This document shows positions 18,567 to 36,126 of a stretch of DNA of 59,837 nt, piece by piece; the stretch's first letter is position 1, and every line of letters starts with the position of its first letter. A program made the position numbers and the translations under genes. Location of the stretch: the NCBI GenBank assembly GCA_001313085.1, contig BBFE01000019.1, forward strand, positions 1 to 59,837, read 5' to 3'. This DNA is from Paenibacillus sp. JCM 18996. GTDB taxonomy: Bacteria; Bacillota; Bacilli; Paenibacillales; NBRC-103111. Under the pieces are notes generated by a model. It did not search any database and was not told the DNA's origin. It worked only from the letters and a program-made list of their open reading frames with translations.

Positions 18567-18706
18567 TTACAGAATTTGAACACCCATCTCCTCGAGAATT
18601 TGGCTTTTAACAGAAACAGCGGCAGCCCGACTACGGTAAAATAATCTCCTTCGATCCGTTCCACGAGCAGGGACCCTACGCCTTGAATGCCGTAGGAGCC
18701 GGCTTT
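18567..18706 (-). pseudogene. maf: 3' fragment of host maf left by island insertion
   Basis: These bases encode the normal end of a Maf nucleotide pyrophosphatase: KAGSYGIQGVGSLLVERIEG, then DYFTVVGLPLFLL and, after a small shift near 18612, QILEEMGVQIL and a stop. Upstream of the KAG codons similarity to Maf stops abruptly. The missing host 5' part (about 160 codons) is found at 35.65-36.13 kb, ending at the same KAG codons. The fragment lies 34 bases before radC, the ancestral maf position. It has no start of its own and is presumably not translated. Confidence 0.88.
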
Positions 18707-18719
18707 GTAGTGCACAATG
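18699..18719. other. left attachment junction of the island
   Basis: Contains the 8-bp sequence ccggcttt (18699-18706; AAAGCCGG on the minus strand) shared with the right junction at 35645-35652. Maf coding similarity ends here. The element-side half-site cacaatg (18713-18719) is the inverse of cattgtg at the right junction, as expected for the dyad of a serine-integrase attP. Confidence 0.75.
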
Positions 18720-18811
18720 GTTCTTTCCGTAGGGAATCATCCCCATTTTGTGACATTTGGCAGACATTTAAGGCAACCGTGGATACAAAAGACTACTTAA
18801 CAGCCCCTGCT

Positions 18812-19102
18812 TTATAAAAAAACGGTGGCATTGTTGCCGCCACCGTTTCCATCAGGATCATCACCATTATTAGGATGAAGTAGTTGCTCAATACTTGCTT
18901 TAAGGTAAATTGTAGGTTCGGTCAAGGATATAATGAGTGGAGCAGGATATCTTGCCGACTCTTCGTCAATAATTATCTTCTCTCGATCAAGAGGACTTCT
19001 CTTATATCCGTAAGGGACAGATGCCAGATATTTGCCCTCTTTCATCCTAGATTTGATATTTTCTTTGACTTTTCGACTAATATCCTTAAACATACAACTC
19101 AT
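18812..19102 (-). pseudogene. large serine recombinase remnant
   Basis: A 96-codon frame reads MFKDISRKVKENIKSRMKEG followed by VPYGYKRSPLDREKIIIDEE. This is the linker and start of the Recombinase domain of large serine integrases (family pattern: ISxKVRxxxxxKxxxGxxxG...PYGYxxxP...LxIDEEAA). The N-terminal catalytic serine domain and the zinc-ribbon/coiled-coil C-terminus are both missing, and after about residue 48 the frame degenerates into unrelated residues. It lies about 110 bases inside the island, next to the left junction, the usual place for an integrase gene. Non-functional. Confidence 0.75.
18815..18846 (-). terminator. hairpin terminator at island left end
   Basis: cggtggc and gccaccg (about 18822-18845) pair around a nine-base loop. 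On the minus strand a T-rich tract follows, so it would end transcripts of the decayed integrase before the maf fragment. Confidence 0.65.
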
Positions 19103-19254
19103 TATACCATGTTTTGACCCCTAGAATCGAATCATCATCTACAAATGAGTCATAATTGTCGCTTATTAAAATGATTCAAACACCCATACGCTTCATGTCT
19201 TCTAGGAACAGCAACGTATATGCGTTATGTCGTGTAATTAGGGAGGCGATCGTC

Positions 19255-19457
19255 ATGATGAAGCGAAATAAAGTATTCGAAGAAGTACGGTACAAAGTGG
19301 CTCAAGAAGCATTGAACGGAATAAAAAACCGGGGCTCTTGCCCGAAAGTACGACGTCACGCCTAAGACCATCCGCAACTGGGTGAAGTAGTACCAAGAAA
19401 CCTTTTGTGCCGACGCGGCCTACACTGGATGAGCGAATCGCCGAATCGAAACGCTAG
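19255..19457 (+). pseudogene. IS3-type transposase OrfA remnant
   Basis: An ATG at 19255 after AGGGAGG opens a short frame (FEEVRYKVAQEALNGIKN). With a one-base shift at about 19334 it continues ALARKYDVTPKTIRNWVK, the helix-turn-helix of IS3-family OrfA proteins. An in-frame TAG follows, then fragments such as LDERIAES. No OrfB integrase or terminal inverted repeats were found. It is a dead insertion-sequence relic within the island. Confidence 0.6.
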
Positions 19458-19499
19458 ATACCTGTACAAACCGCTTCGATTTTCCAGCTGTAAAATCGG

Positions 19500-33240: not shown

Positions 33241-33264
33241 GTTAGCTGTAGCTCTTCACCTGCG

Positions 33265-34624
33265 CAATCGTTTGAATTGAATGCGGCTCCCGGAATCCGG
33301 ATGCATCTTTATCCGGCCCATGGCAAGCCACGCGATGCAGGCGCTGCGATTATCGACTACCTGTTCGGCAGCAGAGAACAAGCCTCCATACCGATTATTG
33401 CCGTGACAGGAACGAACGGAAAAAACCACAACGAGCCGACTCGTCGCACACTTTATGCGTCAGCCGGGAATCATTGTCGGCCAAACGGATTCGGACGGCG
33501 TGCGAATCGACGGCGAGTGGGTGGACCGTGGTGACTGCAGCGGCCCCAAGAGCGCCCGTAGGGTGCTGTCCGACCCGAGAGTCGACGTGGCCGTTTTGGA
33601 AACGGCCCGGGGCGGCATGTTGCGTGAAGGGCTGGCGTTCCAGCATTGCAATATTGGCATCGTGAATAATGTCAGTGATGACCATTTGGGTAAGGCCGAG
33701 GTCGAGAGTCTCGAGGATTTATGGCGGGTCAAACGTATCGTGGCAGAAGCGGTGCTGCCTGACGGCCATTGTATCCTCAATGCGGACGACCCCTGGTGCG
33801 TCCGAATGGCCTCGCACACGAAAGGAAAAGTCGTTTTCTTTTCTCTGAAAGCGGACAATCCGGTGATAAAGGAAGCCATCAGCAAAGGAAAGACAGTTTG
33901 GTTCATTTCTAATGGCGACATTGTTTGCCATCATAACGGATCCTTCACACGGTTCATGAAAGCGGCCGGCATTCCCATTACCCTTAATGGATTGGCCCAA
34001 TATAATATTGCAAACGCGCTTGCTTCCCTTGCGGCAGCACATGCTGCCGGAAAGCCCCTTAAACAGCTGCGAACCGCCATCATGACCTTTCAACTTTCGG
34101 CGGAACAAAATAAAGGAAGGTTAAATGTGTATAGGAGTGAAGATCGTTGTGTCATCGTGGATTTTGCGCATAATCCGGCCGGGCTTCAAGCCATATATCA
34201 AACGCTTGCCCCGCTGGTTCGCAGACGGTTAATTACAGTGGCTTCCATGCCGGGAGACCGCCAGGATGATGCGATCCGGCAGTCGGCAAGAATAATGTCT
34301 CAATTCTCGGATGTTCTGGTGATCAAAGAAGACGCCGATTTAAGAGGCAGAAAACCCCGGGAGGTGGCTCATTTGATTCGGACTGAGGCCTTGGGCGCCG
34401 GACTTCCGGCAAGTTGGCTGCCCATTGTGTCCGAGGAATATGAGGCTTGCCGTAAAGCCTGGGAAATGAGCCAGCCGGGAGATATAGTGCTGTGTTTATA
34501 TGATGAATTTGACAAAATCGAACAATTCTTGAAGGAAATCAACTGCAACACGACAGAGAAGGACTTAAGCAGCTTAATAGCAGAAGAGGGGAGAAACAAA
34601 TGGCTCAATGCTTGCCGTGGTTAA
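33265..34624 (+). pseudogene. cphA: cyanophycin synthetase C-terminal Mur-ligase half
   Basis: Reads NAAPGIRMHLYPAHGKPRD, the link at the end of the CphA ATP-grasp domain. The Mur-ligase P-loop follows as IIAVTGTNGKTTTSRLVAHF once a six-A run at about 33422 is read as five, then VLETARGGMLREGL, NVSDDHLGKAEVE and VDFAHNPAGLQAIYQ. This is the C-terminal half of cyanophycin synthetase, which adds Arg to the poly-Asp backbone. The N-terminal half that adds Asp (about 450 residues) is missing and not found upstream, so the gene is 5'-truncated. Apart from the run at 33422 the frame is open for 389 codons. Confidence 0.82.
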
Positions 34625-35052
34625 ACGAGGAGCCGTCACAGAAAGCACGCATACAGCTCCATAGTCATCGTGGACGCCCAGGGGAATTTGCTTTATAGCT
34701 ATGACAATACGGAAGCCAAAGTTTTTTTTACCCGCTCATCTCTGAAGCTTGTTCAGACCATTCCCCTCCTTCATTCGGGAATTACAAAGGGCAATGTACT
34801 TGCCAAGGCGGGGCTGAAGGCGTATATGGAATGACTCCGTAAACAGGGAATAGGAATATGTATGCAGGTAGACGACGGCAATTCGAGGGCTGCCTATCCA
34901 GCGGCAGTGGAAATCCTGAAGCAGCTTGGCGTCTTGGAGAAAAAAACGAGTTGGCTGAGTTGGAATCATTCCGCCGCCCGGTGCAATACAACCATAGAGG
35001 AGAAGAGACAGGTGTAATAGAAACAACATTCGAGTTGATCAAACACTTTTAA
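34600..35052 (+). pseudogene. L-asparaginase II family gene with internal deletion
   Basis: The 5' part reads MLAVVKRGAVTESTHTA, VIVDAQGNLLYSYDNTE and FFTRSSLKLVQTIPLLHSG, the N-terminus of asparaginase II family proteins. It then jumps to the C-terminal segments LAKAGLKAYM, GICMQVDDGNSRAAYPAAVE and NHRGEETGVIETTFELIK. About half of the normal 320-330 residues, including the middle catalytic region, is absent. Frame errors and a TGA (near 34833) add to this. It overlaps the end of the cphA remnant, and both may once have served Asp/Asn-polymer turnover. Confidence 0.72.
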
Positions 35053-35245
35053 AGCAGGCCTTCTTGAAAAAAGTAAACCTATCATGTGATGATCATACTG
35101 GATAGCAAATAGGTGACCCGATTTGGTCTTTTTTTGTTTGGTTGTCAATCAATTATAATTCAGATCAACAACGATATGCTGACATTGGTGAAAAAAATTT
35201 GACTCAAACTATTCACCAGTCACGCAGAACTCGGAAAATAAAAAA

Positions 35246-35276
35246 AAGAAAGTGCCAGTTTCCCGGCACTTTCGCA
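35246..35276 (-). terminator. terminator of the chimeric maf transcript
   Basis: gaaagtgcc and ggcactttc form a nine-base stem around an eight-base loop. On the minus strand seven T follow. It lies about 50 bases beyond the inferred maf stop. Confidence 0.8.
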
Positions 35277-35326
35277 AAATTCATTTGCATCACACTTTGA
35301 TCTCCTTGATCTCAAATAGCCCTACA

Positions 35327-36126
35327 TCATGTGTTAAAAGGACTTATTCCAAACTTTAATAACATTTGGTAAAGCAGGTTCAAAGGTAAACCCATAACAC
35401 TATAAAAAATCACCTTCGATTTTCTCAATAAAAAAGAGCACCTAGCCCCTGTACGCCGTAACTTCCAGCTTTATCAAGTGGCTCGCCTGTATTTATATAC
35501 GCCCTGATTTCTTCATCACTCATTGGTCTAAAAGTAACTTTACTTACAGTGTGTCCTACAATTACCTCGGGCATCCCGTTTTCCGACTCAGATAATACAC
35601 GATACTGACCAATATCTCCAAGGTGCATTGTGGTGTCATAGTCCCCGGCTTTATCCATAGGTTCTCCGGTCTCAATATAGGCCTGTATTCGAGCAGGCGA
35701 CAAAGCTCTCATATGTACGGTCGTTGCGCTGTGAGCCGTTTTCTCGATGCGCGATTCCACATCGATACAGCACACTCCCGTATATACGCTGTGGCTTCTT
35801 CCCTGCAGAGCGGACAGCATTATCACCGCATGCGCCCTGTCCTTCGGTTTGCCCAGCACCTCGCCGTCCAGCACGACAATGGTGTCCGAGCCGATCACCG
35901 CTCCCGGTTTGCCGAACCCGGCGGCTGCACCAAGAGAGGCTCTCGCCTTGCGCTGTGACAGCGTCTCCACAATTTGAGCGGGCTGAAGCGCTTCGCTGAC
36001 CGTTTCATCCACATTCGAAGCCACCAATTCCACAGGCAGCTGGAAGGCACGGATCAATTCCCTGCGGCGGGGGGAGGCGGAAGCAAGATATAAAGTTGGG
36101 TTTACAGATTGGGATTCGTGCAACAA
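35327..36126 (-). CDS. maf: chimeric Maf nucleotide pyrophosphatase at the island edge
   Basis: Maf/YhdE proteins hydrolyse non-canonical dTTP/UTP-like nucleotides. Residues 1-160 are the host gene: LYLASASPRRRELIRAF, the K/E motif SQRKARASLG, GSDTIVVLDGEVLGKPKD, up to TGEPMDKAG. At this point (att core) the frame runs without a stop into element DNA: a 40-residue linker (DYDTTMHLGDIGQYRVLSES), then a second Maf C-terminal half with VTFRPMSDEEIRAYINTGEP and LDKAGSYGVQGLGALF. Correcting two A/T-run errors (35435 and 35405) extends it to a TGA at 35327. The element half differs from the host tail at 18.6 kb (SVMGLPLNLLYQMLL versus TVVGLPLFLL). Whether the chimera folds is unknown. Confidence 0.8.
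35626..35652. other. right attachment junction of the island
   Basis: Holds ccggcttt (35645-35652), identical to the core at 18699-18706. On one side lies the host maf 5' part, on the other the element. The half-site cattgtg (35626-35632) is the inverse of the left element half-site. Recombining the two junctions regenerates an uninterrupted host maf. Confidence 0.75.

Follow-up and report, generated by a model that had tools for sequence, protein, structure and literature searches.

The contig BBFE01000019.1 of Paenibacillus sp. JCM 18996 (assembly GCA_001313085.1), which is 59,837 nucleotides long and is referred to in its entirety as the window, contains an island of 16.9 kb between the gene maf and its neighbor radC. 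On the minus strand, the valS/folC side is followed by maf, the island, radC, mreB, and mreC, an order that matches that of relatives. A preliminary description of this locus had proposed that a large serine recombinase inserted the island into maf, and our analysis indicates that what the window contains is very probably a mobile element, now decayed, whose ancestor was integrated into the chromosomal maf by such an enzyme. The locus comprises the following features:

35647..36126, minus strand: 5' part of the host maf, ending immediately ahead of the crossover dinucleotide (open reading frame (ORF) 35425-36126, Pfam Maf, gene order as in relatives)
35645..35646, minus strand: putative crossover dinucleotide GG of the maf-side junction (attachment site attL), by analogy with carrier G279 and its empty relatives
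35618..35640, minus strand: element attachment arm on the maf side, TATGACACCACAATGCACCTTGG (same arm in the 7 carriers compared)
35330..35644 (approximate), minus strand: replacement 3' half of maf supplied by the element, DYDTTMHLGDIGQYRV...DKAGSYGVQGLG... (continues the reading frame of the host part, with a frame change near the end)
19245..35329, no strand assigned: cargo between the ends (ORFs and domain matches; a TetR-like piece by eye only)
18707..19244, minus strand: remnant of a large serine recombinase (tblastn with four relatives of 607-668 residues, best E = 5e-34)
18707..18726, minus strand: element attachment arm on the radC side, AAAGAACCATTGTGCACTAC (comparison with other carriers)
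18699..18700, minus strand: putative crossover dinucleotide GG of the radC-side junction (attachment site attR), by the same analogy and by junction comparison
approximately 18567..18700, minus strand: stranded host maf 3' end beside radC (tblastn to Maf tails)
17847..18532, minus strand: host radC, in two frames (similarity to relatives)

The ORF at 35425-36126 encodes 233 residues, matches Pfam Maf in 2 stretches (E = 1.1e-59), and contains the motif D-K-A-G twice (...YIETGEPMDKAG joined to DYDTTMHLGDIGQYRVLSESENGMPEVIVGHTVSKVTFRPMSDEEIRAYINTGEPLDKAGSYGVQGLGALF), the tandem motif repeat of the window Maf being the DYDTTMHLGDIGQYR repeat. The first copy closes the host part, from which the gene continues in frame across the break; beyond it lies a second maf 3' half, which belongs to the element and the final stretch of which is in another frame (35407-35333). 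The host's own maf 3' end, KAGSYGIQGVGSLLVERIEGDYFTVVGLPL..., adjoins radC at 18706-18567; it begins with KAGSYGIQG and departs from the family near its end, where a frame change was judged by eye. The Lys codons at the break lie at 35652, at the end of the host 5' part (...YIETGEPMDKAG), and at 18706, in the stranded piece. Thus, the earlier account of a maf gene split in two was right about the stranded 3' end but not about the remainder, since the element supplies an in-frame replacement 3' half. Its expectation that the joined halves yield a normal Maf end was borne out: when the window flanks are joined, the resulting Maf aligns to short-type Mafs over 178-187 residues with 52-61% identity and 0-1 gap. 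As the same junction pair is found in other genomes, chance is a very unlikely explanation.

Among the best 120 of 7,997 database relatives above threshold, 24 (counting that of the window) carry two K-A-G copies and a joint at which KAG is followed by x-Y-x-(T/N)-T-M-x-L-G, with C for Y in one case. These include proteins named P. dendritiformis, P. turicensis, and Thermicanus aegyptius, and most double D-K-A-G Mafs in the databases are 255-273 residues long. A genome scan yielded 28 loci, four of which are such hybrids, in P. turicensis, P. humicus, P. ginsengihumi, and P. sp. 1_12. P. ginsengihumi has its stranded maf 3' end and radC within 3.5 kb, together with a C-terminal piece of the recombinase; in P. 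sp. 1_12, they are found within 5.3 kb, and no recombinase was found in this island. For P. turicensis and P. humicus, a recombinase ORF abutting the stranded maf end and radC was found at a distance of 84-85 kb. Recombinases of 607-668 residues next to maf 3' fragments, which the preliminary description had suggested looking for, therefore exist elsewhere. Its claim that a serine-recombinase element entered maf at these codons is supported.

The same association was found across the family of P. humicus (394 genomes). The recombinase (E <= 1e-60) was detected in 4/394 genomes and the maf-side arm (<=3 mismatches) likewise in 4/394, and these are the same four Paenibacillaceae genomes, G001, G002, G171, and G279; the reversed arm pattern matched 1/394 genomes. 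Their element ends are 78-85 kb apart. Of the 67 ORFs of at least 90 residues in the P. humicus element body, 31 were matched (>=85% identity, 70% length) in all three other long elements and 59 in at least one, whereas RadC, just outside the elements, is 62-73% identical among the four. The P. humicus recombinase of 668 residues contains the Resolvase, Recombinase, and zinc-ribbon domains (PF00239, PF07508, and PF13408) and thus is a large serine recombinase. It is 61-63% like those of the other three long elements; as its element body is close to the others and its recombinase is divergent (L030 and L034-L036), the integrase seems to have been exchanged in this element with the target unchanged. 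Families could be assigned to some long-element proteins, among them type I restriction-modification subunits, a D5-type primase, and a D12 methylase, while a 1725-residue protein has no family match and proteins of 1163 and 1670 residues have weak ones. Integrative conjugative elements are marked by relaxase and type IV secretion genes; no relaxase was named among the element proteins searched, which represent part of the ORFs (29 in Pfam, 8 in NCBIfam, and 9 in PHROGs); a weak FtsK-like match was seen. The approximately 85-kb element of G002 (L041-L045) encodes proteins of 1163, 1670, and 1725 residues that lack a clear family, as well as an amidoligase, WG repeats, and copper-amine-oxidase-like domains. 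In two database proteins (P0124 and P0130), the recombinase ORF runs through the junction in frame and ends in the Maf tail, i.e., these are recombinase-Maf fusions.

The element-borne tails are far more alike than the genes they complete. In the carrier comparison, tails are 79-100% identical, whereas host halves are 42-67% identical; in four species, the first 67-68 residues of the tail are identical, while the host halves share 46-55%, and the tails of P. humicus and G171 differ in 0/315 nucleotides. Over its first 68 residues, the window tail shares 82-87% identity with those of six further carriers. The nearest non-carrier tails are those of the Clostridia metagenome-assembled genome L012 (64%), of L151 (65%), and of short-type Paenibacillaceae (L068, L077, L141, and L212; 46-59%); seven loci in this comparison yielded no Maf ORF. 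Moreover, the tails evolve under purifying selection. The hybrid protein, which repeats about 60 residues internally, contains the full Maf domain, and structure prediction shows the Maf fold to be complete. The element brings an in-frame replacement for the displaced gene end, as a gene-restoring integrative element would, and the host protein may stay functional after integration, of which purifying selection and the predicted fold are indirect signs.

Uninterrupted relatives allowed us to place the exchange to the base. We examined 121 loci (11 plus 110 from further scans; two overlap others or repeat a counted carrier), 119 of which gave a maf ORF. By tail profile, 94 are short-type and 25 have element-type tails, the latter being hybrids, long-loop Mafs, and seven of normal length. 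All 94 short-type loci have radC 18-201 bp downstream of maf, which is the uninterrupted arrangement that the preliminary description had asked for in relatives, and an exact empty site was found in a close relative of G279. Joining the flanks of G279 yields a Maf that is 97.9% identical, without gaps over 191 residues, to that of this relative (L118), while the joined-flank Mafs of the other five carriers tested reach 60-67% with their best relative. The DNA of L118 reads GAC AAAGCC GG CTCCTAC, the maf-side junction of G279 reads GAC AAAGCC GG GGCGTAC, and the radC-side junction reads TAC AAGGCT GG CTCCTAC. Compared with the empty relatives L118 and L124, the overlap common to attB, attL, and attR is thus GG only, which corresponds to positions 1 and 2 of the Gly codon in D-K-A-G. 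Serine integrases use a 2-bp crossover overlap. The window has AAAGCCGG at both junctions (35652-35645 and 18706-18699), as had been described; however, these 8 bp are not the core, and since the overlap is GG only, their identity mostly reflects shared Lys-Ala codons. A somewhat altered but recognizable form of the radC-side arm is present in P. humicus, P. turicensis, G279, P. ginsengihumi, and G171; in P. sp. 1_12, the arm was not recognized. Two genomes suspected to be carriers from the ends of their matches (G419 and G412) were rejected, as each has a plain maf that precedes radC by 24-90 bp.

In the window, the recombinase has decayed. Relative to the 668-residue relative, its pieces correspond to residues 98-196 (19244-18953, in two frames), 363-382 (18965-18906), and 533-546 (18916-18875), followed by the tail from 18816 to the junction. 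The remnant reported about 110 bp inside the junction is therefore real, but its last piece reaches the junction itself. The first 97 residues and two long inner stretches are missing, which small insertions or deletions are insufficient to explain; the 96-residue ORF of the remnant has no Pfam family match, and the window copy is not a complete Resolvase/Recombinase/zinc-ribbon protein. A helix-turn-helix transposase-like fragment was seen by eye just inside the stub (19240-19440). The cargo includes an ABC transporter piece, a sulfatase, a beta-lactamase-fold hydrolase, a HAD phosphatase, a sugar ABC transporter, a UTRA-domain regulator, and a Mur-ligase-like gene. Outside the island, the ORFs of relatives for host genes (MreB, MinD, ValS, FolC, and others) fall into 2-3 frames of the window; at 5716-18532 and 39066-46211, this affects a large number of host genes, some of them presumably essential (MinD-, MreB-, ValS-, FolC-, and ribosomal-protein-like, named by position). 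These broken host frames would point to an indel-rich sequence rather than to decay of the island.

Tail replacement is not the only way in which maf may be preserved at these codons. In the family of P. sp. 1_12, the recombinase was found in 2/104 genomes, as the stub of P. ginsengihumi and in G479. The G479 recombinase is 44-52% identical to those of the long elements and sits at the same codons. Here, the host maf is cut to ...EPMDKAG followed by AYGSTMYLRKSITGYRLAC and a stop, and 33 bp further on, a 13-kb element contains a complete second maf of 193 residues. G414 (P0051, named P. hamazuiensis) and G402 likewise have a truncated host maf with a whole maf behind it, and in neither was a recombinase found within the stretch read; G402 keeps the stranded host maf 3' end before radC, and none was recognized in G414. 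Thus, two rescue tactics, replacement of the tail and provision of a whole spare maf, exist at one target codon, which is new within the literature searched.

Very probably, the site of the element recombines with maf at the GG of the Gly codon in the conserved D-K-A-G motif. Beside this site, the element carries the coding segment for a different Maf 3' half (about 105 residues) that starts ahead of its own D-K-A-G. Integration thus swaps the host 3' end, stranded by radC, for that of the element, and in the hybrid Maf so produced, about 60 residues are repeated. The recombinase would perform the integration reaction, and the hybrid enzyme is presumably active. Several observations weigh against this explanation. 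The window recombinase is fragmentary, and the hybrid maf ORF of the window has frame changes near its end, which may be sequence errors, as host genes are frame-broken as well. The recombinase matches in G001 and G279 hold 2 and 4 stops along the 668-residue query; nonetheless, both recombinase ORFs are open (607 and 611 residues). The inverted-repeat arms are weakly symmetric about GG: although GG is the best center in 6/6 inferred sites, these sites are related, and shuffles reach the score in 122, 191, 398, 1161, 1271, and 2418 of 5000 cases for the six elements. The codon after the Gly codon varies among four near-identical elements (GGC, GAC, GAC, and GCG) and is unexplained. Finally, the tail scores closer to the element type in seven loci where maf is of normal length (190-208 residues), with radC 68-291 bp behind it in six of them; tails of this type are therefore also found where nothing points to an element.

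A further such point, the absence of any body gene of the four long elements from the window, bears on the origin of the cargo. Using ORFs of at least 90 residues from these elements (tblastn, E <= 1e-3), we obtained matches solely at the two ends and in the host flanks, so the earlier view of the whole 16.9 kb as recombinase cargo is not supported and the present genes of the island may have come later. We lean towards the explanation that an old integration left a scar, consisting of the hybrid maf, the recombinase stub, and the stranded 3' end, and that 16 kb of sugar-transport and other genes came by other means, in which case the cargo would have arrived after the loss of most of the recombinase and the element body. 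The small islands of P. sp. 1_12 and P. ginsengihumi at the same place agree with this; in P. sp. 1_12, the same pair of scars encloses a sugar ABC transporter operon (L004, 10400-15440), for which no tblastx match to the window cargo was seen. On the other hand, element bodies differ, the 13-kb element of G479 being unlike the long ones, and the window cargo might therefore be the body of an unseen variant.

It is very improbable that the double D-K-A-G Maf is a native form, created by tandem duplication inside maf in some Paenibacillus, with an unrelated pseudogene or second copy beside radC and an island formed by rearrangement. Single-D-K-A-G long-loop Mafs without a recognizable recombinase do exist, including six loci (L215-L220) whose long loop is unlike that of the element, and recombinase relics are rare. 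However, native duplication would not lead one to expect invariant tails on host halves as different as those described above, or the loss of the host 3' end to the far end in the carriers compared, and the exact empty site largely refutes it. A general rearrangement hotspot near radC/maf with no link to a recombinase is less probable still. It would accommodate the variable maf-radC gaps of long-loop genomes (157 bp to 9.3 kb) and the islands reported in or beside radC in the portions available of PMC12006667 and PMC8627217, but not base-exact matching junctions in several species, most of which have a recombinase or a stub.

If integration into maf by a large serine recombinase is the correct explanation, some hybrids may have outlasted their elements. 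P. agri (L008) and FJAT-27264 (L010) have an ordinary-looking single-motif long-loop Maf, and their gaps to radC (747 and 746 bp) contain the reduced remains of a recombinase (E = 4e-21 and 6e-22) as well as a relic of a maf 3' end (E = 6e-9 and 2e-6), probably from one event. Among 29 long-loop or odd loci, 5 of which lack radC within the stretch, these were the only recombinase relics in a maf-radC gap (2/29). A third match, in L213, was rejected, as it is merely the Maf tail of a frameshifted short-type gene. Most other long-loop loci have wider gaps than short-type genomes and no readable recombinase relic, and some loops are unlike that of the element. Hence, these loci do not show that all long-loop Mafs are scars, and the healing of scars as a general origin of such Mafs is a proposal.

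The maf element shares features with several known systems. The element e14 uses a tyrosine integrase, whereas the maf recombinase is of the large serine class, like the Ccr proteins of staphylococcal cassette chromosome (SCC) elements. SCC elements target rlmH, in contrast to maf, where about 105 residues are replaced. The best NCBIfam model for the P. humicus recombinase is CcrB, with 106.7 bits, far below the cut-off of 900, so that by this score it does not qualify as a Ccr protein. Among the matches listed, TndX-type recombinases are the top plasmid-borne relatives (tblastn, 31% identity over 85%), differing by this low identity and by the target, a single codon of maf. Searches of mobile sequences yielded the following: in viral contigs, 12 pattern matches to the tail, none confirmed, and one recombinase relative at 39%; in phage records, 1 match to the recombinase stub, 428 to the full recombinase, and 24 to the window maf, the latter two sets all below 60% identity; and in plasmid records, 74 to the tail (best 20 of 74 considered) and 220 to the recombinase, all below 60%.

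In the part available of its description, e14 likewise occupies a conserved gene of metabolism, E. coli K-12 icd, where insertion after codon 362 re-encodes the C-terminal 54 residues in frame and displaces the host end (PMC11148124). There, the same length is re-encoded with two conservative changes, whereas the maf tail is diverged and starts ahead of the crossover motif, giving the repeat. According to the accessible text of PMC8409611, IMEVchUSA3 in dusA and SXT in prfC also supply the missing part of the interrupted gene; the maf element supplies the 3' half and keeps the host start. Diverse large serine recombinases converge on single coding sites, e.g., in a prolyl isomerase, and on a magnesium chelatase-like gene (PMC10083194), just as the maf recombinases share one conserved target gene; in the main text of that survey, supplements aside, "maf" (as a whole word), "septum", and "Paenibacillus" are absent. 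Insertions in or beside radC are described for Listeria and Mesorhizobium (PMC12006667 and PMC8627217), and maf as a gene occurs in no available passage of PMC8627217, PMC12006667, PMC12016501, PMC2789088, and PMC3414803, three of which name radC as an insertion place. Thus, gene-restoring insertion and the convergence of serine recombinases on coding sites are already known, while the maf target, the diverged tail with its internal repeat, and a hybrid that outlasts the element are new within the literature searched. No paper on maf as a serine-recombinase integration site was found there, supplements and most subscription papers aside. Since the site recurs, it was fair, within what could be searched, to call it an unlisted hotspot.

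These findings name a conserved gene with a base-exact attB as a recurring recombinase target, which is useful for integrase tools, and they may illustrate two strategies by which elements spare the gene they enter. Furthermore, odd database Mafs with two D-K-A-G motifs are accounted for as hybrids of element and host, and some of these seem to remain once the element is lost. We offer tentatively, leaning slightly against it, the broader idea that one clade of serine-recombinase elements has altered the housekeeping enzyme Maf lastingly and on repeated occasions, with the two rescue tactics arising at one target codon, and that many long-loop Mafs of the Paenibacillaceae are healed scars, composed of a native N-terminal half and a C-terminal half from an element since lost. 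If true, site-specific integration would be a route of protein domain replacement and loop growth.

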